Assembly (NCBI RefSeq): GCF_009900715.1
Contig: NZ_JAAAJC010000003.1
Location: 186,001-250,000, forward strand
Reading direction: 5' to 3'
Source: Halococcus salsus
Lineage (GTDB): Archaea > Halobacteriota > Halobacteria > Halobacteriales > Halococcaceae
DNA: 64,000 nucleotides
Within the stretch, counting starts at the first letter, position 1. Every line of letters begins with the position of its first letter. The notes under the pieces were generated by a model, which was not told the DNA's origin, searched no databases, and saw only the letters and a program-made list of their open reading frames with translations. Made by a program: the position numbers and the translations under genes. This document shows positions 3,125-20,267 of the stretch, one piece after another.

Positions 3125-3859
3125 ATGGCCCGCATCGACGTCGTGGCCGACATCGAACTCGACTCGCCGACGCTCGTCGAGGGGCTCCCTGGGGTCGGCC
3201 TCGTCGGGAAGACCGTCGCCGACCACCTCGTGAACGCCTTCGAGATGGAGTACTACGCGGGGGTCCACTGCGACGGCGTCCCCCAGGTCGGGGTCTACCG
3301 CGGCGAACGCTCCGCGCTGGTCCCGCCGGTCCGCCTCCACGCCGACCCCGACCGGAACCTCGTGGTGCTCCAGAGCGACGTCCCCGTCTCACCCTCGGAG
3401 GCGACCGCCTTCGCCGCCTGCGTGACCGGTTGGCTCGACGAGCACGACGTCACGCCGGTCTACCTCTCGGGGCTGCCGGACCAGTCCGACGACCCCCGCG
3501 AACTCTACGGCGTCTCGACCGGAAACGGCGACCGGGTGCTCGACGAGGCGGGGATCGTCCCACCCGCCGAGGGCGGCCTCGTCAGCGGCCCGACCGGCGC
3601 GTTGCTCTACCACGCGGGCCGAGTCAGCCTCGACGGCGTCGGTCTGATCGTCGAGACTAACCCCCAGTTCCCGGACCCTGAGGCCGCCCGGGTCGTCCTC
3701 GAACACGGTGTCGCGCCGATCGCCGACATCGAGGTCGAGACCCAGGACCTGACCGAGCGCGCCGAGGAGATCCGCGAGGCCCGCGAACGGCTCGCCGAGC
3801 GGATGGCCGAGGCCGAGGACGAGAGCTCGCAGGCCGAGCCGTTGCGGATGTTTCAATAA
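3125..3859 (+). CDS. PAC2-family protein (proteasome assembly chaperone family)
   Basis: Protein of 244 residues starting MARIDVVADIEL. The signature LVEGLPGVGLVGKTVADHL at residues ~17-35 is the glycine-rich N-terminal motif of the PAC2/COG2047 family. Archaeal members are annotated as proteasome assembly chaperones by resemblance to eukaryotic PAC2; their role in archaea is not settled. The C-terminus is a charged helix (residues ~200-235, ERAEEIREARERLAERM) likely to form a coiled coil. It is divergent from the methyltransferase gene, and the 81-base gap would hold both promoters. Its TAA is followed at once by the T-run of a repeated 3' element. Confidence 0.8.
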   Translation: MARIDVVADIELDSPTLVEGLPGVGLVGKTVADHLVNAFEMEYYAGVHCDGVPQVGVYRGERSALVPPVRLHADPDRNLVVLQSDVPVSPSEATAFAACVTGWLDEHDVTPVYLSGLPDQSDDPRELYGVSTGNGDRVLDEAGIVPPAEGGLVSGPTGALLYHAGRVSLDGVGLIVETNPQFPDPEAARVVLEHGVAPIADIEVETQDLTERAEEIREARERLAERMAEAEDESSQAEPLRMFQ

Positions 3860-4179
3860 AACCCCACCTTTTGCTGCGCTCGCCTTCGGCTCGCTGGCAA
3901 AATGTGGATCAAAAGCGCTGCGCGCTCCCGTTGGTCGCGCTTGCGCCCGCTCACTCGCTTCGCTCGTTCGCGGTACAATAACTACCGACTCCGCCACCGC
4001 ACCGGCCGCCGAAGCCCTCGGCCACTCACTCCGCTCACGGGTCATTGCATTCCCCGTTCGGATCCGAGGGTCTCCCTTCGGTCGAACCTCGCTCCGTTCG
4101 GGCCTCACCCTTCAGCCACCAGGAATCGCAGAACAACGCAGCCGCGCTGCGACCGCACCGCAACCGCCGCCACGGCGGC
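3860..4179 (+). repeat. Modular intergenic element, copy A (3' of PAC2 gene)
   Basis: No gene. Order of modules: CCCCACC plus T-run (3863-3872), a hairpin closed by TTTTGC/GCAAAA (3869-3902), the block AAAATGTGGATCAAAA (3899-3914), a GC-rich part with CGCTCGTTCGCGGTACAATA, then GCACCGG..GAAGCCCTCGGC, a CACCCTTCAGCCACCAGGA-type block near 4107, and a run of ACCGC-like pentamers (~4151-4175) that ends at the gyrA stop codon. The T-run, hairpin, GTGGATCAAAA block and pentamer run occur in the same order on the other strand in copy B (6622-6932). Part of it (TCGAACCTCGC) also resembles copies E and F. Confidence 0.75.
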
Positions 4180-6621
4180 CTACTGGACTTCGGAGAGGAC
4201 GTCGAGACAGGCGACGTGGTCGCCGTCGGCGAGTTGCATCACCCGGACGCCCTTCGTGTTCCGGCCGACGGCCGAGATGTCCTCGACGTGGGTTCGGATG
4301 ATCTGGCCGCGCTGGCTCATCACCACGAGGTCGTCGTCGGCGGTGACGGTCTCGATCGCCGTCACGCCGCCGTTGCGGTCGCCGGTCTTGATGTCCTTCA
4401 AGCCCTTGCCGTAGCGCGATTGGGTTCGGTACTTCCCCATCGGGGTGCGCTTGCCGTAGCCGTTCTCGGTGAGCGTGAGGAGGTCGTGGTCGTCGTCGGC
4501 GACCACCAGCCCGGCCACCGCGTCGTCGTCGGTGAGTTTGATCGCGTTCACCCCGCGGGCGCTCCGCCCCATCTCGCGGGCCTCCCCCTTCGGGAACCGG
4601 ATCGCCATCCCCTGCTCGGTGGCGACGATCAGGTCGCCCTCGTCGTCGGTGACGGTCACGTCGACGAGTTCGTCGCCGTCTTCGAGCCGGGTGGCGATCA
4701 GGCCGTTCGAGTGGATGTTCTCGAAGTCGGTGGCGCAGGTCCGCTTGATGTACCCCTCGCGCGTGACCATCGTGAGGCACTGGTCCTCGTCGTCGAGGTC
4801 GTCGGTCGCCACCACAGCAGTAATATCCTCGCCGTCGTCGAGGTCGACGAGGTTCACCGCGGACTTCCCGCGCGCCGTCCGACCCATCTCGGGCACCTCG
4901 TAGACCTTGAGCCGATAGACGTAGCCCTGGTTGGTGAAGCACAGGAGATAGTCGTGGGTGTTGGCCCGGAAGACCGCCGACACCCTATCGCCTTCCTTGA
5001 GTTTCGTGCCGATGATCCCCTTGCCACCGCGACCCTGGGCCTCGAAGTTCGCCGCCGGCATCCGCTTGATGTAGTCGTTCTGGGTCACCACCACGACCAC
5101 CTCCTCCTCGGGGATGAGGTCCTCGCGGGTCACGGTGCCGTAGTCCTCGACGATCCGCGTCCGGCGGTCGTCGGCGTACTCGGCTTTGACGTCCCGGAGT
5201 TCGTCGGTGATCACCCGGTCGAGCTCGGCGTCGCTCCCGAGGATGGTTTCGAGCCGGTCGATTTCCGTCTGAACGTCCTCGTACTCCGCCTCGATCTCCT
5301 CGACCTCGATCGAGGTCAAGCTCCCGAGCTGCATCCGAACGATGTGGTCGGCCTGGCGTTCCGAGAGGTCGTAGGAGTCCTGGAGGGCGGCCTTCGCCGC
5401 GTTTCGGTCCTCCGCATCTCGAATGCGCTCGATGACGTCCTCCGCGTTTTCGAGCGCCGTCAGCCGGCCGTCGAGGATGTGGGCTCGGTCCTCGGACTCG
5501 GCGAGGTCGTGTTCGGTGCGCCGACGGACCACCTCGCGACGGTGGTCGAGGTAGTGCCCGAGGAGCTGTTTCAGGTCGAGGACCTGCGGCTCGCCGTCGA
5601 CCAGCGCGAGGTTGATCACCCCGAAGGTCTTCTCGAAGCAGTGTTCGAGGAGCTGGTTCTCGACGACGTCCGTCAGGGCACCGCGTTTGAGGTCGATGAC
5701 GATCCGGATGCCGTCCCTGTCGGACTCGTCACGGAGGTCGGAGACCCCTTCGAGGGTGCCGTCGTTGACCAGGTCCGCGATGTGTTCGACGAGTTTGGCC
5801 TTGTTCTGCTGGTAGGGGAGCTCGGTGACGACGATCCGATCTCCACTCGAGTTCTCCTCGATCTCGTAGCTCGCGCGCATCCGGACCCGACCGCGACCCG
5901 TGGTGTAGGCCGAGTGGATCGCCTCGCGACCGACGATCTCCGCGCCGGTCGGGAAGTCGGGGCCCTTCACGTGTTCCATCAGGTCCTCGACGACGCAGTT
6001 CGGGTTCTCGATGAGGTGGATCGTGGCGTCGATCACCTCCCCGAGGTTGTGCGGCGGGACGTTGGTGCTCATCCCGACCGCGATACCGGACGAACCGTTG
6101 ACGAGGAGGTTCGGGAAGGCCGCCGGAAGCACGTCGGGCTCTTCGAGGCGGTCGTCGTAGTTGGGGACGAAGTCGATGGTGTCCTTCTCGATGTCCGAGA
6201 GGAGCTCCTCCGCGATCGGGCTCATCCGGGCTTCCGTGTAGCGCATCGCCGCCGGCGGGTCGCCGTCGACGGAGCCGAAGTTACCCTGGCCGTCGACGAG
6301 CGGTGCGCGCATCGAGAAGTCCTGGGCCATCCTGGCGAGCGCGTCGTAGATCGCCGAGTCGCCGTGCGGGTGGTAGTCGCCCATCGTGTCGCCCACGACG
6401 GAGGAGGACTTCCGGTGGCCCGCACGGGAGGTGACGCCCTCCTCGTGCATCGCGAAGAGGATCCGGCGGTGGACGGGTTTGAGACCGTCGCGAACGTCGG
6501 GGAGCGCCCGACCCGCGATGACGGACATCGCGTAGTCGATGTAGGACTGCTCCATCTCGTCCTCGATACGAACCGAATCCATCGACGCGTCGGGACCGCT
6601 TGGGGGAATATCAGAACTCAT
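4180..6621 (-). CDS. gyrA: DNA gyrase subunit A
   Basis: Protein of 813 residues. With GyrB it forms the ATP-driven type IIA topoisomerase that introduces negative supercoils. The active-site tyrosine is Tyr128 in AAMRYTE. The quinolone-determining loop [10 protein letters not shown] (84-93) keeps Ser89 and Asp93, the equivalents of E. coli Ser83 and Asp87, so no classical resistance substitution is seen. The GyrA box QGRGGKG is near residues 527-533, followed by the C-terminal DNA-wrapping blades. It is downstream of gyrB on the same strand, but the two are separated by a 311-base repeated element instead of overlapping. Confidence 0.98.
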
Positions 6622-6932
6622 GGATCAGGGGTGTGTCGCGGTTTCGGTGGCCGGTCGGCCGCCGCGGCGGTGCGGCGGCGCGGTCGCGGTACGGTTGCGG
6701 TACGGTTGCGGTACGGTTGCGGTGCGGTCCTGGTGGATGAAGGGCGACGGCGCGAGTGAAACGAGCGCCGGAGGGCTTCTGCGGTGCTGTGCGGTCGCGG
6801 TGCGGCGTCGGAAGGTATCGTACCGCGAGCGAGGCGGAGCCGAGCGAGCGGCCTTTTTTGATCCACATTTTTTGGCCGGGGTTGAGGACCGCGAAGCGGT
6901 CCGATTCCCCGGTGAAAAAAGGTGGGGGTGCA
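6622..6932 (-). repeat. Modular intergenic element, copy B (between gyrB and gyrA)
   Basis: Same module order as copy A when read on the minus strand: CCACC plus T-run (complement of 6915-6924), hairpin GGACCGC-GAA-GCGGTCC (6886-6902), GTGGATC block (complement of 6860-6873), GC-rich part with CGCTCGCGGTACGATAC, the CGCCCTTCATCCACCAGGA block (complement of 6728-6746), then pentamer-like repeats. The last part includes an 11-base tandem repeat, GCGGTACGGTT, three times exactly (6686-6718) plus an imperfect fourth. No open reading frame in it looks like a protein. Confidence 0.78.
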
Positions 6933-9038
<2,106 letters not shown>

Positions 9039-9059
9039 GTCCCCGAAATACCACCACCA

Positions 9060-11432
9060 ATGCCATCCCTCCAATCGACACTCGACGATGGGGGGGTCGC
9101 CGCGGAGCTCGCGGAGGGCCAGCGCGCGATCTCCATCGCCGAGTTCTTCGAGAAGAACAAGCACATGCTCGGGTTCGACAGCGGTGCCCGAGGTCTCGTC
9201 ACCGCCGTGAAGGAGGCGGTCGACAACGCGCTCGACGCCGCCGAGGAGGCCGGCCACCTCCCCGACATCTACGTCGAGATCGAGGAGGTCGGCGACTACT
9301 ACCGCCTCGTCGTCGAGGATAATGGACCAGGTATCACCGCCGAACAGCTCCCCAAGGTCTTCGGGAAACTCCTCTACGGCTCGCGATTCCACAAACGCGA
9401 GCAGGCCCGGGGTCAGCAGGGGATCGGTATCTCGGCGGCGGTGCTCTACAGTCAACTGACGAGCGGCAAACCCGCGAAGATCACGAGCCGAACGGGCGGA
9501 GGGGAGGCGAAGTACTTCGAGCTCATCATCGACACCGACACCAACGAGCCCGAGGTCTCGGTCGAGGAGACGACGACCTGGGACCGACCCCACGGGACGC
9601 GGATCGAGCTCGAAATGGACGCGAACATGCGCGCCCGGGGCCAGCTCCGGGATTACATCAAGCACACCGCAGTGGTGAACCCCCACGCCCGGATCGAGCT
9701 CCGCGAACCGGGTGGGGAGTTCAAGGCCGAGCGCGCGACCGACGAACTCCCGGCCGAGACCGAGGAGATCCGACCCCATCCCCACGGGGTCGAGCTCGGC
9801 ACGCTGCTGAAGATGCTTGACGACACCGACTCCTACAGCCTCTCCGGGTTCCTCCAGGAGGAGTTCACGAGGGTCGGAAAGAAGACCGCCGCGAACGTCA
9901 TCGCGGCGTTCAACGACCGCCACTACGGTCGCGAGATGGCGTGGCGAACGCCGCACGACGGCGAGGCGATCGAGGCCGCGGTCACCGACGTGGTGGCGAA
10001 CAAGCGCGCCGAGGACGTCGAGGCGTTCGCCGCCCGCGTGGCCGAGACCGTCGGGGAGCGCGACCGCCTCGCACACCACGAGCTCGAATCGCTCGTGACG
10101 ACGGCGGCGGGCGAGACCAACACCGAGACCGGTACGACGTTCGGCGAGACGGTGTGTGAGAAGGCCGTCGCGGCTGCGTGGGAGGTGATTCGGGAGAACC
10201 GTGAGAGCGACCTCTACGAGCTCGCCGACGACGCGACGAGCACCCGAAAGGACAGCTCGACCATCGAGCCGTTCGCCGACCGGCTGGCGGCGAAGTTCGA
10301 GGGCGGGCGCGACCGCCTCCGACGCGACGACCTCGCCGAGTTCGTCGACCGCGCGGCGGCGATGACCGAGGAGCGCGACGGGGTCTCGTTCGGCGAGACC
10401 GCGCGCGAGAACGTCGTCGAGGCCGTCTGGGGGGTCTGTCGGGCGGTGCCCGACGACCCGCCGAACGTCACCGAGGTGGCCGGGGACCGCGACACCGCGA
10501 GCGCGCTGTTGGACGCGATGGGCGCGACGGACATCATCGCGCCGCCGACCGACTGCCTCTCGCCGATCACCGCCGAGCTCGTGCGCTCGGGGCTCGAAAA
10601 GGAGTTCGACGCGGACTTCTACGCCTCGGCGACGCGGGACGCGGGCGTCCACGGCGGCGACCCGTTCATCGTCGAGGCCGGCATCGCCTACGGCGGCGAA
10701 CTCCAAGCCGAGGGTAGCGTCCAACTCATGCGCTTCGCCAACCGGGTTCCCTTGGTCTACCAGCGCGGCGCGTGTGCGACGACCGACGTGATCAAGTCGA
10801 TCGGCTGGCGGAACTACGGGCTCGACCAGCCCGGCGGCTCGGGGATGCCGAACGGGCCGTGCGTCATCATGATCCACGTCGCCTCGACCAACGTGCCGTT
10901 CACCAGCGAGTCGAAGGACGCGATCGCGAACGTCCCCGGGATCGAGGACGAGATCGAGCTCGCGGTCCGTGAGGCCGCCCGCGAACTGAAGAGCTACCTG
11001 AAGAAGCGCCAGTCGATGCAACAGCGCCGCCAGAAACAGGACGTCCTCGGAGCGATCCTCCCCGAGATGGCGACCAAGCTCGCCGACGTCACCGAGCGTG
11101 AAGAGCTGGACATCGACGACTCGCTCGCGCGGATCATGAACAACGTGCTGGTCGAGCGCCGTATCGAGGACGACCACGTCGAACTCGTCGTCGAGAACCA
11201 CTCCTCAACGGGCGAGAGCCCGGAGCTCACCGAGATCGTCTCGGCCGAGCCCACGGCGGTCTCGGACGGCGCGCGCGTCGTCGAGATGGACGGCGAGTGG
11301 TTCATCAAGTGGTCGCCCGAGGTGAGCGGCAACGACGAGGCCACCCTCGAGTACGACCTCGCCGACGCCGACGCCGCCTTCGACCTCGACGTGACCGGTA
11401 TCGACGACGCGAAACTCACCGTCAACGCCTAA
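9060..11432 (+). CDS. top6B: DNA topoisomerase VI subunit B
   Basis: Protein of 790 residues, the GHKL ATPase subunit of the archaeal type IIB topoisomerase. It begins [15 protein letters not shown]-site motifs are [16 protein letters not shown] (N box), VEDNGPGI (G1) and [15 protein letters not shown] (G2). The transducer domain ends with the helix [14 protein letters not shown]. It is far longer than the crenarchaeal protein of about 530 residues because of an insertion at residues ~300-480. That insertion contains two clearly duplicated ~60-residue units (about 319-379 and 401-461), each with FA.R(V/L)A...RDRL and FGET. It is followed by top6A after 22 bases. Confidence 0.97.
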
Positions 11433-11454
11433 CTGTCACCAACAGCACCCACCC

Positions 11455-12555
11455 ATGAGCACCGACACACCCGACATCGACGCCTCGGCGCGCGAGCGGC
11501 TCATCGACCTCGCCGCCGAGTTCTACGACCAGTTCGCCGCGGGGGAGGTCCCCGAGATGCGCCTCCCGACGCGGACGAAATCCAACATCGAGTACGACGA
11601 GGACTCGAACGTCTGGGTCTACGGCGACCGCGAGAGCACGCGAAGCGCGAACTCCGTTCGTGGCGCGCGCAAGCTCCTCAAGGCCATCTACACCATCGAC
11701 TTCCTCGCCGAACAGCTCGACGAGGACCGCTCGTCCACCCTGCGTGAACTCTACTACCTCTCCGAGAGCTGGGGCGAGAAGGAGGCTCAGTTCTCCGACC
11801 AGGACGAGTCGAACCAGCTGATCGAGGATCTGGAGATCGTGTCCCACGTCACCCGTGAGGACTTCCACATGCGCCCGGAGGAGTCCGGCGCGAAGCTCAT
11901 GGGACCCCTCAGAATCCGCGAGCAGACCAACCGCGGCGACCGCGAGATCCACTGCCAGGACGACGTGGGCCAGGGCGGCTATCAGATCCCGAACAACCCG
12001 GACACCATCGAATTCCTCGACCACGACATCGACTTCGTCCTCTGCGTCGAGACCGGCGGGATGCGCGACCGCCTCGTCGAGAACGGCTTCGACGAGGACT
12101 TCAGTACCCTCGTGGTCCACCTCGGCGGCCAGCCCGCGCGTGCGACCCGGCGGATCATCAAACGCCTCCACGACGAACTCGATCTCCCAGTAGTCGTCTT
12201 CACTGACGGCGACCCCTGGTCCTATCGGATCTACGGGTCGGTGGCCTACGGCTCCATCAAGTCCGCTCACCTCTCCGAGTACCTCGCCACACCCGAGGCG
12301 CGCTTCATCGGTATCCAGCCCGCGGACATCGTGGAGTACGATTTACCTACTGACCCCCTCAGCGACTCGGACATCAACGCGCTCGAAAGCGAACTCACCG
12401 ACCCGCGATTCCAGACCGACTACTGGCGCGAACAGATCGAACTCCAGCTCGACATCGGGAAGAAAGCCGAACAGCAGTCGCTCGCGGCCCGCGGTCTGGA
12501 CTTCGTCACGGACACCTACCTCCCCGAACGGCTGACCGCGATGGGCGTGTTGTAG
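11455..12555 (+). CDS. top6A: DNA topoisomerase VI subunit A
   Basis: Protein of 366 residues, the DNA-cutting subunit related to Spo11. The catalytic tyrosine lies in [13 protein letters not shown] (Tyr100/Tyr101). The Toprim domain has [17 protein letters not shown] with the metal-binding aspartates, and a preceding glutamate-containing strand, LCVETGG. Length is normal for the family. It directly follows top6B on the same strand, the usual archaeal operon order, so both subunits should be made together. Confidence 0.97.
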
Positions 12556-12596
12556 CTCGTCCTCGATTTCGCGGGCCGAAGCTGACGCGGCCGCAG

Positions 12597-12603
12597 GTTT
12601 ATC
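12597..12603 (+). promoter_or_regulatory. TATA-like box for the DUF433/DUF5615 pair
   Basis: GTTTATC lies about 27 bases before the ATG at 12627, only some 40 bases after the top6A stop codon, so the toxin-antitoxin pair probably has its own promoter. Confidence 0.45.
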
Positions 12604-12626
12604 CCGGATGGCGGGCAAGACCATCC

Positions 12627-12905
12627 ATGACGGGGATCGTGAAGACGGACGACGTGCTCGGCGGGAACGCGCGCCTCGACGGCCGTCGGATCGCGGTGGT
12701 CGACGTTGCCGAGCGAGTTCTGGACCACAACCACGCTCCCGAGTACGTCGCCGACCAGCTCGATATCGAGATTTCGGCGGTCTACGCCGCGCTCGCGTAC
12801 TACTACGACAACATCGAGGAGATGAACGCCGCTCGCGAACGGCGTCGAGAACTCGATGCGGTCCTGAAAACCCGTTCGAAGGCACCGGAAGCCGTCGAAC
12901 ACTGA
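12627..12905 (+). CDS. DUF433 antitoxin-like protein
   Basis: Protein of 92 residues. DUF433 proteins are small helix-turn-helix proteins that usually pair with PIN-like DUF5615 proteins and act as antitoxin and autorepressor. The typical core is visible: RLDGRRIAVVDVAERVLDH, then APEYVADQLDIEISAVYAALAYYYDNIEEM. The C-terminal tail is basic and probably the toxin-neutralising part. It precedes the DUF5615 gene by three bases, so the two are translated together. Confidence 0.82.
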   Translation: MTGIVKTDDVLGGNARLDGRRIAVVDVAERVLDHNHAPEYVADQLDIEISAVYAALAYYYDNIEEMNAARERRRELDAVLKTRSKAPEAVEH

Positions 12906-12908
12906 GGG

Positions 12909-13250
12909 ATGCCTCGGCTTTCGTTCCGCGCCGACGAACACGTCGACAGGGCGTTTATCACGGCACTCAGAGCCGAAGGCTACGATGTTTCGACGGTAGA
13001 AGCGGACTACGAACGGGGATTGAGTGACGAGGACCACCTCGCCGAATGTCGGGCGAACGGGCGGGTCGTGCTCACGAACGACGACGATTTCACGAGATTA
13101 GGGCTTGATGTGGAACACGCCGGCATCGTCCGCTACAGTGACCAGGGCCTCTCGCCGGGTGCGTTCGTGCGGGGGATCAGACGTATCGACACACATCTCT
13201 CCGCCGACGAAATGAGCGATCACGTCGAGTGGTTGGAGCAGTGGCTCTGA
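12909..13250 (+). CDS. DUF5615 PIN-like toxin
   Basis: Protein of 113 residues. DUF5615 is a compact branch of the PIN-domain ribonuclease superfamily. Acidic residues expected for metal binding are seen in FRADEHVDRAF (Asp/Glu/His near residue 8-10), AEADYERGLSDEDHL and LTNDDDFTRLG. As part of a type II toxin-antitoxin pair it is predicted to cleave RNA unless bound by the upstream DUF433 protein. The active-site residues appear intact, so the toxin is probably functional. Nuclease activity has been inferred, not shown, for this subgroup. Confidence 0.8.
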   Translation: MPRLSFRADEHVDRAFITALRAEGYDVSTVEADYERGLSDEDHLAECRANGRVVLTNDDDFTRLGLDVEHAGIVRYSDQGLSPGAFVRGIRRIDTHLSADEMSDHVEWLEQWL

Positions 13251-13699
13251 GGGCGACCGCAGAGACCCAACCGTGTTTCCCACAAGAGGGTCAGCATTCA
13301 CCCCTACTTTTCCTCCTCGGGTTAGCTCGTTGTGGCTCACGGGTCGCTCCGCTCCCCGTTTGCATTGAGGTTCTCACTTCACCCGAACCTTGCGCCGCTC
13401 GTTCGCGGAACAACCACTAACCTTCCGCACAGCACCGCTTCCGCGACCGCCACACGCCTCCCCAGCCGATTCGCTTCGCTCGGACTCCGTCCTCGCTCGC
13501 TCATCCACCGTCGGAGCTTCGCTCTGACGAGCCTGCACTCGCGTTGCTCGCACAGACCTCGCACGGTGTCAGGGGTCGGCGCTCACCGTCGTTCGCACCG
13601 ACGCGAGTGCGCGCCACGGTGATTGGTCGGGAGCACGGGGAGGTATCCGCGCCATCGACAGTCGCGGGGTTGAAGACGGTCGCTCGCTCACTGCGGGGT
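13251..13699 (+). repeat. Modular intergenic element, copy E (3' of toxin gene)
   Basis: No convincing gene in 449 bases. It carries CCTACTTTTCCTCCTCGGGTTAG (13312 onward, shortened here), like copy C, a GAGGTTCTCACTTCACCCGAA block near 13369, then CCGCACAGCACCGC (13425-13438), CACGCCTCCCCAGCCGA (13453-13469) and, near the end, a hairpin GTCGG...CCGAC around CTCACCGTCGTTCG (about 13574-13602). The last three blocks recur in the same order in copy F (23654-24015). Confidence 0.65.
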
Positions 13700-15223
13700 A
13701 TGTCGAGGTCAGACCTCGCGGGGCGGGTCACGGACGTGCTCACCGTCGACGTCGATGAGTTCAACGCCCGCGCCGAGGAGGAGGCCGCGGTCGTCAAACG
13801 CGAACTCGATGCGGGCACGTTCGACAACCCACAGGCGATGATCGGGCTGGAGTACGAGTTCTACGGGGTGAATCGCGGGACGAGCGCGCTGGCGCGGGTC
13901 CCGCGCCGACTCCTCGAGTACATCGGCTTCGAGAAGGAACTCGGGCTCCACAACGCCGAGATGTGTACCAGCCCGCAGCCGCTCAACGGCTACGGGCTCC
14001 AGGCCCAGGAGGCGGAAGTCAACGCCCGCCTGCGGACCGCGCTCGACGCCGTGGCGAGTTCCGACCTCCGGCTGGTGAGCGACGGGATGTGGACCATCCC
14101 CCCGGAGGGAGAACCCGCGAACGAATACCTCACCAGCAGCGTCGCCGACGACGGGATCCGGATCGCCTCGAACATGAGCGAGTCCGTGCGCTATCACGCG
14201 ATGGCGAACACCGAGGGGGCGGATTCGGCTGGGATGCGCCTCGACGCACCCCACGTCTCGCTCTCGGCCGACACCGTGATGCCCGAGAGCCTGATCACCT
14301 CGATCCAGCCCCACTATCAGGTCTCCCACGCCGCCGACCTCCCCGAGTACTTCGCCTACGCGCTCCGGGTCGCGGGCCCGCTGCTCGCGCTCGGCGTCAA
14401 CTCGCCGTTCTTCCCGCCGGACCTCTACGACGACACCCCCGCAGAGCGCATCCTGGACGACGGCTGGATGAGCAATCGGGTCCACGTCTTCGAGGCCGTC
14501 CTCAACCCCGATGGCGGCACCGGGAAGGTCCGCTTCCCCCACGACCTCGATTCGGCCGAGCAGGCCGCCGAGCGGATCGCGAACGACGACACCGTGGTCT
14601 CGATGCCGGTCGAGGAGACCAACCGGTTCGACGACGCGTTCTCGACCTTCCGGGTGAAGCACGGCACCTACTGGCGGTGGGTGCGCCCCGTCTTCGACGG
14701 CGCGACCGAGTCGGCGGCGAACGCTCGGATCGAGTTCCGGCCGATCGCGGGCCAGCCGACGGTCAGGGACGCCATCGCGTTCCAGGCCGCCTTCGCGGGC
14801 CTCCTCGAAAGCCTCACCCGACGGGAACACCCCGTCGCGAGCCTCGACTGGCAAGACGCCCACGAGAACTTCTACGAGGCGGTCTATCACGGGCTCGACG
14901 CCGACCTCGTCTGGATCACCAACGACGGTCGCGAGACCCGGGACTACGAGGAGATCTTCTCGGACCTCTTCGCTCACGCGAAGGACGGCCTCGAATCCCG
15001 CGGGCTCTCCGAGAACGAGACGGCGAAGTACCTCTGGCCGCTCCGCCAGCGCGCCCGCCACCGGGTGACCCCGGCGGACTGGAAACGAAACGAGGTCAGA
15101 ACCCGCCTCGACGACGGCGAGGGGTTCGCGGACGCCGTCCACGGGATGCAGCGCGCGTACATCCAGCGCCAGTCCGAGACCCTGATCGGCGACCACAGCT
15201 TCGCCGACTGGATCGCCGACTGA
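13700..15223 (+). CDS. Glutamate-cysteine ligase-like (GCS2/YbdK-type) protein
   Basis: Protein of 507 residues starting MSRSDLAGRVTDV. The stretch MIGLEYEFYGVNRGTSALA (residues ~47-65) matches the N-terminal acidic strand of carboxylate-amine ligases of the glutamate-cysteine ligase superfamily. Later SPFFPPDLYDDTP, FRVKHGTYWRWVRP and ARIEFRPIAGQPTVRDA fit the ATP/metal-binding core. Haloarchaea use gamma-glutamylcysteine as their main thiol, so a role in thiol synthesis is possible. This protein is, however, longer than the characterised haloarchaeal gamma-glutamylcysteine synthetase, and the amine substrate is unknown. The start was placed at the ATG after the repeat element. Confidence 0.65.
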   Translation: MSRSDLAGRVTDVLTVDVDEFNARAEEEAAVVKRELDAGTFDNPQAMIGLEYEFYGVNRGTSALARVPRRLLEYIGFEKELGLHNAEMCTSPQPLNGYGLQAQEAEVNARLRTALDAVASSDLRLVSDGMWTIPPEGEPANEYLTSSVADDGIRIASNMSESVRYHAMANTEGADSAGMRLDAPHVSLSADTVMPESLITSIQPHYQVSHAADLPEYFAYALRVAGPLLALGVNSPFFPPDLYDDTPAERILDDGWMSNRVHVFEAVLNPDGGTGKVRFPHDLDSAEQAAERIANDDTVVSMPVEETNRFDDAFSTFRVKHGTYWRWVRPVFDGATESAANARIEFRPIAGQPTVRDAIAFQAAFAGLLESLTRREHPVASLDWQDAHENFYEAVYHGLDADLVWITNDGRETRDYEEIFSDLFAHAKDGLESRGLSENETAKYLWPLRQRARHRVTPADWKRNEVRTRLDDGEGFADAVHGMQRAYIQRQSETLIGDHSFADWIAD

Positions 15224-15589
15224 GTGACGACCGGCCGCCCGCGGCGGTCTGCGGTGCGGTCGCGGCGCGGTGGCCGTCGCGGCCAGCGGAGTGGTGTTGT
15301 TCCTGGTGTCTCGGCGAGCGTCAGCGAGCCGAGGCTCAGGAGAGCGGTGCTCTCCTGGTGGATGAAGGGCGAGCCGCGCGAGCGAGGCCGGAGGCCGAGC
15401 GAGGAGCGAACGGAGTGAGCGCACGGCGAGGGCTTCGGCGGTGCGGTTGCGGGAGCGGTGCTGTGCGGGGTCGTTAGTGATCGTACCGCGAGTGAGCCGA
15501 AGGCGAACGAGCGGCAGTTTTTAGTCCAGGTTTTTGCGACGAGTGGTTAGCGAGCGCAGCGAGCTAACCCGAGGAGGAAAAAAGTGGTC
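15224..15589 (-). repeat. Modular intergenic element, copy C (3' of korB)
   Basis: Lies between converging genes and reads in the korB direction. On the minus strand: T-run (complement of 15578-15583), hairpin closed by GGTTAGC/GCTAACC (15545-15569), a 30-base block around CCTGGACTAAAAACTG (complement of 15509-15538) that is identical to copy D at 19001-19030, CGCGGTACGATC, GCACCGCCGAAGCCCTCG, and the CGCCCTTCATCCACCAGGA block (complement of 15353-15372). An AACACC-containing tail and ACCGC-like pentamers run up to the ligase stop. No gene is seen. Confidence 0.8.
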
Positions 15590-16453
15590 TCAGTAGAACT
15601 CGCGAACGAGGTCCGTCGCGTCCTCGGGTGCGCCGTCGGGGATGTCGGCCATGTTGGCGTCGAGGTCGTGGCGCTCGTTGTAGGGCACCGAGTCCTCGTC
15701 CTGGTAGAGCACGCCCATGTACTCGGTGTCGTCGTCGGCGATCTTCTCGAGAGCCGCGTCCCTGTCGTTCGAGTCGTGGTCGGTCTCGTCGAGGTCGACG
15801 ATCGAGTCCCGGAAGTAGTCGTAGGTGTCGACGTCGTTGAACGTCACGCACGGGCTGTAGACGTTGACGTAGCCGAAGCCGTCGTGTTCGATCGCCTGCT
15901 GGACGAGCTCGGCGTGGCGCTGGGCGTCCGAGGAGAACGACTGGGCGATGAAGCTCCCGCCGGCGGCCATCGCGAGCGCCTTCGGGTTGACCGGCTCCTG
16001 TTTCGGCCCGTCGGGCGAGGTCGCCGTCTCGAAGTCCTCGCGGCTGGTCGGCGAGAACTGGCCCTTCGTGAGGCCGTAGATCCGGTTGTCCATCACGACG
16101 TAGGTCATGTCCATGTTGCGGCGGACCGCGTGGACGAAGTGGCCCGCGCCGATGGAGTAGCCGTCGCCGTCGCCACCCGAGACCATGACTTCGAGGTCGG
16201 GGTTGGCGCTCTTGACGCCGATGCCCACGGGCAGAGCGCGGCCGTGGACGCCGTGGAGCGCGTAGCTGTGCATGTACGTCCCGATCTTGCCCGAGCAGCC
16301 GATACCGGCGACCACGAAGGTGTTGTCGGGGTCGTTGCCGGTGTTCGCGAGGGCTTTCATCATGCCGTTCATCGTCCCGAAGTCGCCGCATCCGGGACAC
16401 CACGTCGGCTGCTTGTCGGACTTGAAATCCGTGAATCTGACGTCTGAGCTCAT
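15590..16453 (-). CDS. korB: 2-oxoacid:ferredoxin oxidoreductase beta subunit (probably 2-oxoglutarate type)
   Basis: Protein of 287 residues. It carries the thiamine diphosphate site: WCPGCGDFGTMNGMMKAL near the N-terminus with cysteines for an iron-sulfur cluster, GIGCSGKIGTYMHSY, and the TPP motif SGGDGDGYSIGAGHF...DNRIYGLTKGQ. With KorA it decarboxylates a 2-oxoacid, makes the acyl-CoA and reduces ferredoxin. The size (287 with a 588-residue alpha subunit) fits the haloarchaeal 2-oxoglutarate enzyme better than the larger pyruvate enzyme. Its ATG overlaps the korA stop by four bases. Confidence 0.9.
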   Translation of the reverse strand: MSSDVRFTDFKSDKQPTWCPGCGDFGTMNGMMKALANTGNDPDNTFVVAGIGCSGKIGTYMHSYALHGVHGRALPVGIGVKSANPDLEVMVSGGDGDGYSIGAGHFVHAVRRNMDMTYVVMDNRIYGLTKGQFSPTSREDFETATSPDGPKQEPVNPKALAMAAGGSFIAQSFSSDAQRHAELVQQAIEHDGFGYVNVYSPCVTFNDVDTYDYFRDSIVDLDETDHDSNDRDAALEKIADDDTEYMGVLYQDEDSVPYNERHDLDANMADIPDGAPEDATDLVREFY

Positions 16454-18216
16454 GTGGGGACCTCCTGTGGCGTGTCGAGTTCCTCGGTGATCCGCTCGGC
16501 GAGTTCGTCGGCCTTGAACTGCACGCCGTTGTACTTGTTGACGCGGTTGACGCGGGTAAGGGTGTCGTGTTCGAGTACGTCCGCGAACTGGCCGGTCGCG
16601 TTACACTCGACCACGATGACCTCCTCCGCCTCCTCGAACGCCTCGGAGAGGTCGGGTCGCGGGAAGAGGTAGGGCACCGAGAGGAACCGGACGGAGACGT
16701 CGGCCTCTTCGAGGAACCCGATCGCCTCGCGCATCGCCCCCTCGTTCGAGCCCCACGAGACCACGAGGGTGTCGGCGTCGGGGTCGCCGAACTCGCGGTA
16801 GTCCCACTCCTCCTCCTCCTGAGCGGTCTGAACCTTCTGGTTTCGTTTGTCGACCTGCTCGATACGGACGTCGGTGTCCTCGGTTCGCCGACCGAGCTCG
16901 TCGTGTTCGAGCCCGGTGGTCATGTGCGCGCCGCCCGAGGTCCCGGGGAGGGTGCGGGGGCTGACGCCGTCGGCGGCCGGGAAGTGTGGCTGGAACTGGT
17001 CCTTGTCGTTGAGCCACGTGTCGATGTCGTTCTCGTCGACGAGTTTCCCGCGGTCGACCTCGACCGCGTCCATGTCGAACTCCTCGGGCTCGTAGGTCTG
17101 TTCGGTGACCGAGAGCGCCAGGTCCGCGACTAGGTATACCGGCGTCTGGTACTTCTCCGCGAGGTTGAACGCCTCGACGGTCTTGTGGAAACACTCGGCG
17201 ACCGTGGTGGCCGCGACCACGAATCGGGGGATCTCGCCGTGCCCCCCGTAGAGCAGCATGTCGAGGTCGCCCTGTTCCTGTTTGGTCGGCATCCCGGTCG
17301 AGGGCCCCGAGCGCATCACGTCACAGATCACGAGCGGGGTCTCGCTGGTCGCGACGAGTCCGAAGGTCTCGGTCATCAGGTCGATCCCCGGACCCGACGT
17401 GGCGGTCATCGAGCGCGCGCCGGCCCGTGCCGCGCCGAGCGCCATGTTGATCGCCGAGAGTTCGTCCTCGGCCTGCATCACGTGGCCGCCGTAGCGTTCG
17501 ATCCGGCCCTTCAGGTACTCCATCACGTCCGTCGCGGGCGTGATGGGATAGCCCGAGTAGAACCGGCAACCGGCGGCGATCGCCCCCATGCCGATGGCCT
17601 CGTCGCCGTTCAAGAGGACGTAGTCGCTGTCGGTGGTCTCGACGTCGTAGCCGAAGTCGTCGCGGTCGTACTCGTCCTGGACGTGTTCCTCGCCGAGCCG
17701 GGCGGCCTTCTTGTTGTTCTCGACGATCGACTGGCCCTTGTTGCCGAAGCGTTTCTCGAGCGCCTCGTCGAGGTTCTCGATCGGGAAGTTCGCCACTTCG
17801 CACGCGGTCCCGAGTGCCACGATGTTCTGCATGATCGCGCCACCGGCGTCCTCGGCGAGCGATTTCAGCGGGACGGGGAGCCCGATCATCCCCTCGGGGG
17901 CCTCGAAGTCCTCCATCATCGTCCGCTCGCCGTCGTAGATGATGACCGAGCCCTCGTGGAGTTCGTCCATGTTCTCCTCGACCGTGCGTTGGGTCAACGC
18001 GATCAGGATGTCGAGCCGGTCGACGACGCTCTCGACCTTCTCGGTCGAACTCCGGACCTTGTAGGCCGTATAGCCGCCGCGGATGCGCGAGGCGAAGTCC
18101 TTCGAGGTGAAGACGTGTCGGCCCGCGCGCGAGAGCGCTTGAGCGAAGATCTTGCCGGTGGAGTTTATCCCGTCGCCGGCTTCCCCGCCGATGGCCCAGT
18201 TCAGATCGTCTGGCAT
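16450..18216 (-). CDS. korA: 2-oxoacid:ferredoxin oxidoreductase alpha subunit (fused gamma-alpha)
   Basis: Protein of 588 residues starting MPDDLNWAIGGEAGDGINST. Residues 1-180 are the gamma domain (GGEAGDGINSTGKIFAQAL, RIRGGYTAYKVR). The rest is the alpha pyrimidine-binding domain, with GAIAAGCRFYSGYPITPATDVMEYL and TATSGPGIDLMTETFGL, then a C-terminal transketolase-like domain with VVECNATGQFADVLE. The gamma-alpha fusion is usual for archaeal two-subunit enzymes. It is the first gene of korA-korB and diverges from a flavin reductase gene 88 bases away. The methionine at 18216 is the family start; upstream codons cross into that gene. Confidence 0.92.
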   Translation of the reverse strand: MPDDLNWAIGGEAGDGINSTGKIFAQALSRAGRHVFTSKDFASRIRGGYTAYKVRSSTEKVESVVDRLDILIALTQRTVEENMDELHEGSVIIYDGERTMMEDFEAPEGMIGLPVPLKSLAEDAGGAIMQNIVALGTACEVANFPIENLDEALEKRFGNKGQSIVENNKKAARLGEEHVQDEYDRDDFGYDVETTDSDYVLLNGDEAIGMGAIAAGCRFYSGYPITPATDVMEYLKGRIERYGGHVMQAEDELSAINMALGAARAGARSMTATSGPGIDLMTETFGLVATSETPLVICDVMRSGPSTGMPTKQEQGDLDMLLYGGHGEIPRFVVAATTVAECFHKTVEAFNLAEKYQTPVYLVADLALSVTEQTYEPEEFDMDAVEVDRGKLVDENDIDTWLNDKDQFQPHFPAADGVSPRTLPGTSGGAHMTTGLEHDELGRRTEDTDVRIEQVDKRNQKVQTAQEEEEWDYREFGDPDADTLVVSWGSNEGAMREAIGFLEEADVSVRFLSVPYLFPRPDLSEAFEEAEEVIVVECNATGQFADVLEHDTLTRVNRVNKYNGVQFKADELAERITEELDTPQEVPT

Positions 18217-18304
18217 GTGCTTGAACCGCGTACGCCATCTGCGGAGGAAAAGGCTTCGGAACACTGACCGAAGTCCCTTTGGCCGAAACCCACCGAGGCG
18301 AGCT

Positions 18305-18946
18305 ATGGAACCAACACCGACCACCGTCGAGGGGGTTCGCGACGTCGGGCCGGATACCGTCGCGCTCGACCTCGTTACTCCAGGGGGATTCGACGCCCAC
18401 CCCGGCCAATTCGTCAAACTCACGCTCGATGTCGACGGCGAGCGCGAATCGCGCTTCTACACCCTCTCCTCGCCCGCGGTCGCCGAGACCTTCGAGGTCA
18501 CGGTCGGGATCGACCCCGACGGCGACCTCGGGCCCCGACTCGCGAGCCTCGAACCGGGCGACAGTATCGAGGTCGCGGGACCGTTCGGCAGCGCCCACTA
18601 CGAGGGTGAATCATCCATCGCCGTGCTCGCCGGCGGGCCGGGTGTGGGCCCCGCCGTCGGCGTCGCCGAGCGCGCGCTCCGCGACGGCGGCGCGGCGAGC
18701 GTCGTCTACCGCGACGACGACCCCGCCCATCGCGAGCGCCTCGACGCGCTCCGCGAGGCGGGCGCGTTCGTCACGGTGCTCGACCCCGAAACGGAGCTCA
18801 CCGACGCGGTCGAAGAGGCGCTCGAAACCACCCCCGACGCCCAGGCGTTCGTCTACGGCTTCGCCGACTTCCTCGACGACGCCACCGCGGCGCTCGCGGC
18901 CGCCGGCGGCGACCCCGACGACGCGAAGGTCGAGAACTTCGGGTAA
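18305..18946 (+). CDS. FAD-dependent oxidoreductase of the ferredoxin-NADP reductase superfamily
   Basis: Protein of 213 residues. FAD-binding motif RFYTLSS (residues ~50-56), a beta-barrel first half, and a Rossmann NAD(P)-binding second half with AGGPGVGPAVGVAERAL. It lacks a [2Fe-2S] domain and lacks the long insertions of plant-type reductases. It is therefore a minimal reductase passing electrons between a pyridine nucleotide and a flavo- or ferredoxin partner. It is divergent from korA/korB; a link with the ferredoxin reduced by that enzyme is an inference from position only. Confidence 0.82.
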   Translation: MEPTPTTVEGVRDVGPDTVALDLVTPGGFDAHPGQFVKLTLDVDGERESRFYTLSSPAVAETFEVTVGIDPDGDLGPRLASLEPGDSIEVAGPFGSAHYEGESSIAVLAGGPGVGPAVGVAERALRDGGAASVVYRDDDPAHRERLDALREAGAFVTVLDPETELTDAVEEALETTPDAQAFVYGFADFLDDATAALAAAGGDPDDAKVENFG

Positions 18947-19297
18947 CACACACCCACTTTTTTACTTCGTCGGGTTCGCGCTCCGCGCGAACCGCTCCTC
19001 GCAAAAACCTGGACTAAAAACTGCCGCTCACTCGCCTTCGGCTCGTTCACGGTGAACCGCGCTCACTTCGCTCGCGCGGACGCTACCATACCCCGCAACC
19101 ACACCGCCGAAGCCCTCGGCGCGCGCTCACTCCGTTCGCTCGCGCGCCTCGCCCTTCATCCGCCAGGCACCGCGACCGCACCGCCACCGCCCCGCGACCG
19201 CCGACCGCACCGCGGCGGCCACCGCACCGCCGCACCGCCGGCCGGCCCGAAGGTCCGAGATCGAGCGGAACGGTGGGTTGATGGTCGGGCCGGTGGT
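18947..19297 (+). repeat. Modular intergenic element, copy D (3' of flavin reductase gene)
   Basis: Modules in order: CACCCAC plus T-run (18953-18964), perfect 9-bp hairpin GGTTCGCGC-TCC-GCGCGAACC (18974-18994), a 30-base block at 19001-19030 identical to copy C, CACTCGCCTTCGGCTCGTTCA, an inserted second small inverted repeat (CCGCGCTCACTTCG...), GCACACCGCCGAAGCCCTCGG-like block, TCGCCCTTCATCCGCCAGG (19149-19167), and a long run of ACCGC/ACCGCC units to about 19240. No gene is seen. Confidence 0.8.
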
Positions 19298-19855
19298 ATG
19301 TCAGCCATGAACGTGCGCGACTGGCAGGACATTCTCTCCGACGTCACGACGTCGGGTGCGGACGCGGGCGGCTGGCGCGCGGTCGCGGGCAACCGGGCCT
19401 CCGGCATCGGCGAGGACATGTACCTCGGCCACCCCTCGGCGGGCGTCTACCAGCTCAAGACCTACGCCAAGAACCCCTTCGAGGTCCGCGGCGTCGGCAC
19501 CCGCGTGGCCCGCCGGATCGACGACGACCTCGACTCGCTCTTCCCGAAGAAGGACGCGGGCCGCTTCGGCGTCCAGTCCCCGATGACCGACGAGAACGAG
19601 GCGACCGAGGCCGCTCGCGACCTCGAGAGCGTGCTCGAAGCTCACTCCGACGCGCCGACGACCCCAGGAGATCTCTTCGAGGACGTGATGGGCGCGCTCG
19701 ACAGCCCCGCCTACGGCCCGATGGAACACGATTCCTACGGGCGACCCGACGGCCTCGACGACCTCTCGGGGGAGTTCGAAGAAGCCGAACGCCTCCTCAA
19801 CACCGAACTCGACGAGCTCGTGGACGCCGACGAGACCAACCGCGGCTTTCAGTAA
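19298..19855 (+). CDS. Conserved hypothetical haloarchaeal protein
   Basis: Protein of 185 residues (MSAMNVRDWQDIL; a second possible start is three codons later). I do not recognise the family. It is acidic and soluble, with a central segment GVYQLKTYAKNPFEVRGVGTRVARRIDDDLDSLFP (shown only in part) that looks like an alpha/beta core. The tail is helical and acidic, EFEEAERLLNTELDELVDADE. It is followed 19 bases later by an NTF2-like protein and a small membrane protein, perhaps as one transcript. No signal peptide or membrane segment. Confidence 0.6.
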   Translation: MSAMNVRDWQDILSDVTTSGADAGGWRAVAGNRASGIGEDMYLGHPSAGVYQLKTYAKNPFEVRGVGTRVARRIDDDLDSLFPKKDAGRFGVQSPMTDENEATEAARDLESVLEAHSDAPTTPGDLFEDVMGALDSPAYGPMEHDSYGRPDGLDDLSGEFEEAERLLNTELDELVDADETNRGFQ

Positions 19856-19874
19856 CCCCACCGAAACCCGCCCA

Positions 19875-20267
19875 ATGACCGCCGAATCCACTATCGAAGC
19901 CTACTACGATACCCTCCGCACTGGCGACCCGCTCCCGCCCTTCTTCGACCTCGACGAGTCGACCGTCAAGTTCGGCATCGGCGAACGGCTCGTGGGCGAG
20001 GAGATCGAGGAGGGACTCCGCGAACAGACCCGTACGACCCGCGAGTGGACCGTCGAGAGCCACGCGCTCCGCGTCACCGAACGCGACGACACCGCGTGGT
20101 TCTCGGACCAAGTCCGAATGGCGTGGATCGACGACGAGGACGAGCGTCACGACCACGAGACGCGCTGGAGCGGCACGCTCGTACGTCGCGGCCCGGACGA
20201 AGCGGAGGGGATCGACGCCGACTGGCGCTTCGTCGGGATGCACGTCAGCGTGCCCGGTGAAGCCTGA
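19875..20267 (+). CDS. SnoaL/NTF2-like fold protein
   Basis: Protein of 130 residues: ESTIEAYYDTLRTGDPLPPFF at the start, then beta strands with DTAWFSDQVRMAWID, RWSGTLVRRG and DWRFVGMHVSVPGEA at the end. This is the pattern of SnoaL_3/nuclear-transport-factor-2-like proteins. Such proteins bind small ligands in a cone-shaped pocket; the ligand cannot be told. The stop overlaps the start of the next gene (bases 20265-20269), indicating translational coupling. Confidence 0.7.
   Translation: MTAESTIEAYYDTLRTGDPLPPFFDLDESTVKFGIGERLVGEEIEEGLREQTRTTREWTVESHALRVTERDDTAWFSDQVRMAWIDDEDERHDHETRWSGTLVRRGPDEAEGIDADWRFVGMHVSVPGEA

Follow-up and report, generated by a model that had tools for sequence, protein, structure and literature searches.

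The 64,000-nt stretch of DNA analysed here (the window, G000:C3:186001-250000 of a 3.52-Mb haloarchaeal genome) carries gyrB (6933-8861, minus strand, 642 aa, stop codon TAA at 6935-6933) and, behind it on the same strand, gyrA (4180-6621, 813 aa, start at 6621). The two genes are separated by a 311-nt spacer (6622-6932), the whole of which is occupied by one element in the orientation of the genes. The spacer begins with TGCACCCCCACC-T6-CA and enters block A (6863-6925, minus strand), a hairpin of the form CCAC-C-T6-..GGACCGC-TTC-GCGGTCC..-A6-T-GTGG, of which the 5' arm contains the sense T6 and the 3' arm A6, and of which the right half is a motif found widely in the order. The sense T6 (6915-6920), followed by C, lies 12 nt past the gyrB stop codon. 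On the plus strand, the A6 that pairs with it reads as a first T-run (6868-6873), and a second sense A6 reads as another T-run (6854-6859), which adjoins hairpin B and follows it in the plus reading. Block B itself (6822-6853, minus strand) is a GC hairpin that contains tandem TC/TC mismatches, which on the plus strand are GA/GA. It is followed by block C (6728-6779, minus strand), the genus-specific core in which GAAGCCCTC and CGCCCTTCATCCACCAGGA enclose a 24-nt stem, and by block E (6675-6729, minus strand), which consists of tandem GC-rich CCGCAACCGTA/CCGCACCGC repeats.

Folding as RNA gave -35.5 kcal/mol for the gyr block A closed by CCAC/GTGG and T6/A6 (z -3.8, with 0 of 200 shuffles as good), and the whole 311-nt spacer reached a z of -3.4 (0 of 100 shuffles equal). 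The spacer is gene-free and, as in palindrome-associated transposable elements (PATEs), too short to encode a transposase. The idea that it represents a curated Rfam RNA was rejected: no match was obtained within the 64-kb window at the gathering score, and a search of 3800-7000 at E ≤ 1 gave none in the spacer and one microRNA-family match inside gyrA, far below the cut-off. A terminator scan of 3700-20000 called 11 sites (8.0 expected), and the gyr site was not among them.

Positions 6622-6932 proved to be a full copy of a dispersed repeat, as the preliminary description had proposed for a complete element lying right after the gyrB stop with a T-run and a hairpin; the T6 begins after 12 nt and is part of the hairpin arm. 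At least 45 matches to the spacer, itself included, were found in the same genome (40 of 190 first-look candidates scored). Three further copies containing blocks A to C lie within the window. The second (3862-4124, plus strand) is located between the gene at 3125-3859 (plus strand) and the convergent gyrA, the third (15353-15583, minus strand) past the stop of the gene at 15590-16372 (minus strand), and the fourth (18956-19168, plus strand) past the stop of that at 18305-18946 (plus strand). Searches with the core 19-mer at up to three mismatches yielded 45-85 sites per genome in ten genomes of the genus (0-3 with the reversed pattern); at up to two mismatches, 33-75 sites were found in the genus versus 0-1 in eight genomes drawn from three other genera within the family. 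Of 146 genomes of the order, own genus included, 103 contained the block-A motif AAAAANCTGGACNAAAAA (≤1 mismatch), sites of which can also be written CCACCTTTTTT..AAAAATCTGGACCAAAAA, and they represent 42 of the 56 genera; by our own count, the reversed pattern gave 12 hits in nine genomes. The 20-mer GGCAAAATGTGGATCAAAAG, which represents block A in most copies of this genome, was detected at up to two mismatches in 10 of 59 genomes; the present one has 49 copies (for example G000:C1:47678-47697) and three congeners have 4-12, an abundance that may reflect either lineage-specific amplification or homogenisation. Matches to blocks A and B also occurred in twelve plasmid records of named haloarchaea, two of them to the right half alone, and none of the twelve had an annotated gene under the match; phage records gave no match to the element. 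The copy on the Halobellus limi plasmid directly adjoins a stop codon. Of the other 11, according to an incomplete gene table, five have an upstream gene ending at a distance of 104-274 nt as the nearest one listed, three have it on the other strand and three have none listed within 400 nt.

The copies analysed below were collected by the core motif, and gene calls relied on an in-house codon score that is known to miss some genes (e.g. L008). In 44 of 59 copies, a coding-scored frame had its stop 2-22 nt ahead of the base that precedes the T-run, with a mode of 6-7 nt, whereas nine shifted positions gave 0-3 of 59; four more copies, in which the T-run was absent by the rule used, were left out of the 59. 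The remaining 15 were not anchored to a coding-frame stop, and some of these lie in divergent spacers. Among 30 loci examined outside the genus, 27 had a T-run and 16 of the 27 were anchored to a stop, mostly with gaps of 2-9 nt (0-1 at five shifted positions). A position after stop codons, where the preliminary description had the element insert or grow, therefore holds for most copies (44/59 and 16/27), and these share with archaeal T-stretch terminators a T-run just 3' of the stop codon. Classification of 63 copies by neighbouring genes gave 25 in convergent, 22 in tandem sense, 7 in tandem antisense and 7 in divergent arrangement, with two incomplete, and the upstream gene was on the same strand in 48 of the 62 copies for which one was called. 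Copies behind tRNA genes were observed both within and outside the genus: those at L006 and L219 directly follow tRNA-Leu genes, and those at L019 and L228 lie ~140-170 nt behind a tRNA gene and adjoin an apparent tRNA 3'-end fragment. The sense T-run was T4 in 38, T5 in 3, T6 in 16 and T7 in 1 of 58 copies. The two A-runs that follow it were equal in length in 51 of 58, as (4,4) in 32, (5,5) in 18 and (6,6) in one, so that the other strand carries two matched T-runs.

The core has the general form GAAG-CC-C-TC-stem-TC-G-CC-CTTC, with stems of 14 to 248 nt that are of even length in 56 of 63 copies and comprise 51 distinct sequences. Core arms formed stronger duplexes with their own partners than with swapped ones (-11.0 kcal/mol, n = 42, versus -6.4 kcal/mol, n = 398; P = 2 × 10−10), and the core hairpins are conserved as structures rather than as sequences. 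Simple core stems end in a three-base TNC loop in 41 of 46 copies of this genome and 29 of 30 of the nearest species, and in the distinct simple stems of the two species a single one of the 318 standard pairs read on the sense strand was G.T, and 74 of 86 mismatches were TC or CT. The same pattern extended to the three-base-loop hairpins from the T-run to the core, in which 307 of 347 mismatches were TC/CT. The loop statistics, restricted to three-base loops, gave TNC 103, GNA 30 and other 21 of 154 in this genome, 98, 27 and 27 of 152 in the nearest species, and 18, 5 and 16 of 39 at order-wide loci; the corresponding numbers for control coding blocks were 34, 35 and 537 of 606. On the strand opposite to the gene, TNC loops read as GNA loops and TC/TC mismatches as tandem GA mismatches, both of which are very stable, above all in DNA. 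This grammar points to the strand opposite to the gene as the one that folds, a suggestion to which energy models give partial support. As RNA, core C reached -19.4 kcal/mol (z -2.7) on the other strand versus -14.5 (z -2.3) in sense; as DNA, the values were -9.5 and -8.2, with nearly equal z. Hairpin B was no better than shuffles on the plus strand (z +1.1 as RNA, +1.6 as DNA), and as DNA it did not beat shuffles on either strand. Sense block A gave z values of -3.8 (gyr), -2.0 (3862) and -3.3 (18947) in the window copies, and that of the third copy (15353-15583) was no better than shuffles (z +0.6). A stem lay directly beside the second A-run in 16 of 57 copies of this genome versus 36 of 1,140 shuffles under a simple stem rule, and in 12 of 54 versus 29 of 1,080 in the nearest species, an excess of about 8-9 times the shuffle rate and yet a minority of copies. 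The layout of the gyr copy, with a hairpin and then a T-run, is thus not general. The make-up of the element is mosaic, with hairpins nested within hairpins.

Comparison of this species with its nearest relative (63 of 64 copies here, 58 of 60 in the relative) identified an orthologous copy for 56 of the 63, 47 of them by both flanks. Coding flanks had a median identity of 91%, and fourfold sites were 83% identical. The right 12-mer anchor was identical in 49 of 56 pairs and the left 9-mer in 51 of 56, numbers that are biased upward by the use of that motif in finding the copies. The core stem was identical in only 4 of 53 orthologous pairs, and its median identity was 0.48 in orthologous and 0.50 in random pairs; the corresponding medians were 0.67 (random, 0.61) for block A, 0.81 (0.50) for block B and 0.69 (0.62) for linkers. 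Stems at least 90% alike between the species numbered 9 of 45. In 14 of 49 differing pairs, one of the two stems recurred without change at a different locus in the other genome, and exchange between loci is one reading of this turnover. The gyr locus has the reversed pattern, with the same core stem in both species and differing blocks A and B. Loci and anchors therefore persist, and the replacement of most stems outpaces change at fourfold sites. This turnover in place poses a puzzle that lends itself to direct tests: structure and anchors stay and most stems differ at ~91% identity of the coding flanks.

At the gyrB-gyrA junction, a spacer of 132-349 nt with element sequence was present in all ten genomes of the genus examined (the G008 length, ~220 nt, was taken from printed sequence) and was degenerate in two. 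The strict search found the core there in eight of the ten, the remaining two being degenerate or deletion-fused. In G005 (L115), the left half of block A is joined to the right half of block C within a 132-nt spacer, as expected from a deletion between two similar hairpins. The gyr T-run is T4-T5 in six relatives and absent directly past the stop in three. A core on the 3' side of gyrA occurred in five of the ten genomes; among element sites of the compared stretch whose flanking gene was found, the gyr junction was the best kept. Outside the genus, 30 genomes of the family and order were queried, two of which were not measurable; the spacer was at most 42 nt in 19 of the 28 and at least 92 nt in 9, and in five named haloarchaeal records the gene distance was -4 to +4 nt. 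The statement that haloarchaeal gyrB and gyrA normally abut was thus mostly right, and in all ten genus genomes the element splits a gene pair that adjoins in most relatives. Within the own family, the spacer was 0 nt in three genomes of genus g4, 113-132 nt with no visible element in three genomes of g2, and 367 nt with GC repeats in one genome of g3. Families f6, f7 and f14 each include one genome with a hairpin element directly past the gyrB stop; one of the three elements clearly belongs to the T-run/A-run type, another to the core type, and the third, whose arms are TTTTACC..GGTAAAA, only resembles block A. Two other f7 genomes have gyr spacers of 18 and 22 nt. Occupancy across the genus and in other families indicates that the element at this site is at least as old as the ancestor of the genus, and occupation of the junction has probably occurred on more than one occasion. 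An event recent to this genome does not agree with occupation in all ten members; nor was the spacer an ancient feature devoid of element-like sequence, since element sequence was found in it in all ten.

For the analysis of promoters, a matrix was trained on 122 divergent starts from ten stretches. A promoter-like site preceded gyrB in 10 of 10 species (score 5.6-7.3, at or above the 98th percentile of operon-internal starts). The score of gyrA was -1.7 in this species, the 2nd percentile of divergent starts, 0.3 in the nearest relative and up to 4.1 in other species. Nothing in the gyr spacer of this species rose above coding background; the highest score in it falls on the T-run and is no better than those seen in coding blocks, and a gyrA promoter in the spacer was rejected. 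Tandem genes downstream of the element had a median score of 2.5 (n = 22), above that of operon-internal starts (-0.3, n = 44; P = 6 × 10−5) and below that of divergent starts (4.7, n = 122; P = 0.004), as expected of a unit boundary. At gyr, an element of the unit-boundary kind is set inside an old operon, and gyrA needs either read-through or an unseen promoter.

The element is close to three known kinds, namely T-stretch terminators, REP/BIME mosaics and PATEs, and the PATE link that was tested fails. Archaeal T-stretch terminators, as described in passages of PMC7237163, likewise have a T-run followed by C just past genes, with hairpins near some sites; the gyr element differs in being a multi-hairpin composite with T-runs paired on both strands that belongs to a dispersed repeat family. 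In the Haloferax volcanii test reported there, a T5C stretch ended 95% and a hairpin 59% of transcripts, and the gyr T6C resembles, by analogy, this T5C signal. Termination in archaea through aCPSF1 and U-tracts is treated in parts of PMC8716108 and PMC7515710. Dispersed intergenic imperfect palindromes arranged in mosaics, as found here, also characterise REP/BIME sequences in the sections of PMC3733652 and PMC12306157 that describe them, where roles in termination, mRNA stability and supercoiling are proposed; REP/BIME sequences are also marked by a GTAG/CGTC tag and a REP-associated tyrosine transposase. The gyr-type element is a much longer composite, and no Y1 transposase adjoins any copy in this genome, whose single Y1_Tnp match lies at a locus lacking the element. 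The PATEs of Haloquadratum, according to the account in part of PMC3119063, are similarly short and non-coding haloarchaeal palindromes with inset small elements and no visible terminal inverted repeats; unlike them, the gyr-type element is anchored to stops, its loci are mostly kept across species, and no link to an IS605-type gene was found. Neither the core nor the block-A motif was present in the 3.1-3.4 kb around 12 TnpB-domain matches and one Y1-transposase match of this genome, apart from one isolated half-site, and IS200/IS605 parentage was rejected. No word starting with "halo" occurs in the main text of PMC3733652 or PMC12306157, and no description of the element was found in the literature searched, which included parts of these two papers and of PMC3404096, PMC3402447, PMC4666352, PMC3119063 and PMC7237163. 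The motif letters, looked up as text, occurred in ten papers that by title seem to have no relation to it.

The element is genuine and of long standing in the genus; most copies are anchored to stops, and its features are terminator-like. The explanation that we favour, at slightly less than even odds, is that the gyr spacer is one copy of a composite haloarchaeal 3'-end element that acts as a two-way transcription stop or insulator, splitting the operon so that gyrA is reached by read-through. A polymerase leaving the gene would halt at the sense T-run, and one arriving from the other side would halt at hairpin B and the paired T-runs; on the plus strand of gyr, hairpin B would be met directly before the first T-run reached. 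In favour of this explanation are the anchoring to stop codons within and outside the genus, the copies directly behind tRNA-Leu genes, the predominance of convergent and tandem sense arrangements, the A-runs of equal length, the better promoter-like sites of tandem genes downstream, the preference of core arms for their own partners, the excess over shuffles of stems beside the second A-run, and the transcript ends at T-stretches and a hairpin in Haloferax. The odds of a two-way stop are lowered by the contact of hairpin B with the T-run in just 16 of 57 copies. The T4 length of 38 of 58 sense T-runs also speaks against it, as do the shorter or missing gyr T-runs of relatives, the 15 copies not anchored to a coding-frame stop, the plasmid copies other than that of Halobellus limi, the folds of hairpin B and of block A in the third window copy that did not beat shuffles, and the terminator scan that passed over the gyr site. 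The missing promoter-like site of gyrA bears on the question in two ways: it argues against a strong stop ahead of an essential gene, and with a working stop it would force read-through. Leaky read-through is therefore likely, the element serving as an attenuator that would lower gyrA relative to gyrB, and an altered balance of gyrase subunits is a reasonable prediction.

A different account regards the element as a palindrome of the REP/BIME or PATE kind, one that is dispersed or swapped at the DNA level, has no role in transcription and lies at gene ends because these are tolerated sites. It is possible, although we doubt it. The mosaic make-up, the nested hairpins, the fast change of stems, the amplification of one block-A subtype in this lineage and the near absence of G.T pairs on the sense strand all agree with it, whereas the spacing of ~6 nt from the stop and the sense orientation are hard to explain by tolerance alone; the anchors, even if their identity is biased upward, are kept compared with 83% at fourfold sites, and the motifs are absent from the TnpB-domain and Y1-transposase loci. 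In E. coli operons, REP sequences protect mRNA from 3' decay or act at processing sites. A comparable 3'-UTR structure that shields the upstream mRNA or sets a processing site, such that gyrB mRNA outlasts gyrA mRNA, would fit the position right past stops and the sense folds of block A, which beat shuffles in three of four window copies. We consider it unlikely: the remaining fold, that of the copy at 15353-15583, did not, TNC loops (103 versus 30 GNA of 154) and TC/TC mismatches would be stabler in the form that they take on the other strand, and core C as RNA is likewise more stable there. That the gyr copy is a decaying relic without effect is very improbable, despite the degenerate copies in two of ten species and linkers that diverge almost as much in orthologous as in random pairs, given the occupied junction throughout the genus and hairpin elements at the same place in three other families.

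If transcription stops at the composite element, as the two-way-stop explanation holds, it would constitute a recognisable and widespread haloarchaeal terminator/insulator module, which would allow transcription units to be read off the sequence, and the gyrase subunit balance of the genus would hinge on read-through. A wider hypothesis, put forward here as speculative and on the whole less than probable, is that these elements form a shared haloarchaeal class at gene ends, in which fixed anchors carry interchangeable hairpins and the terminator works on two strands with length-matched T/A runs and a GNA-loop/tandem-GA grammar on the opposite strand. Its stems would turn over faster than neutral point mutation alone could achieve, perhaps because loci exchange them via single-stranded DNA, and the class would repeatedly have split gyrB-gyrA into an attenuated operon.

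Several separate observations were made in the course of these comparisons. A core variant outside the genus, CTCGCCCTTTCTGAGTCCACCAGGA, was traced to the left end of a larger unit, 1.65 kb in length, which carries an OB-fold, RPA-like gene. The unit (L344:1849-3500, L343, L345-L352; plasmid hits H13-H37) has sharp ends and consists of a left GAAAGCCCTC hairpin, a ~650-nt leader, the OB-fold/RPA-like gene and a T6 behind the gene; no other frame of at least 250 aa lies wholly inside it. It was found at 310 places in 177 plasmid records, haloarchaeal among the matches listed, and at least 80% of it in 103 records. The unit was not adopted as the parent of the element, matches to its protein in the genus being 30-42% identical over longer stretches and at most 48% over short OB-fold stretches. 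In three genomes of the order (L270, L271 and L272), gyrB is interrupted in frame after about residue 439, giving open frames of 898-1100 aa, and the interruption is probably an intein. Within the window, 12627-13250 (plus strand) contains a pair of small genes resembling those for a DUF433 antitoxin and a PIN-like DUF5615 toxin.
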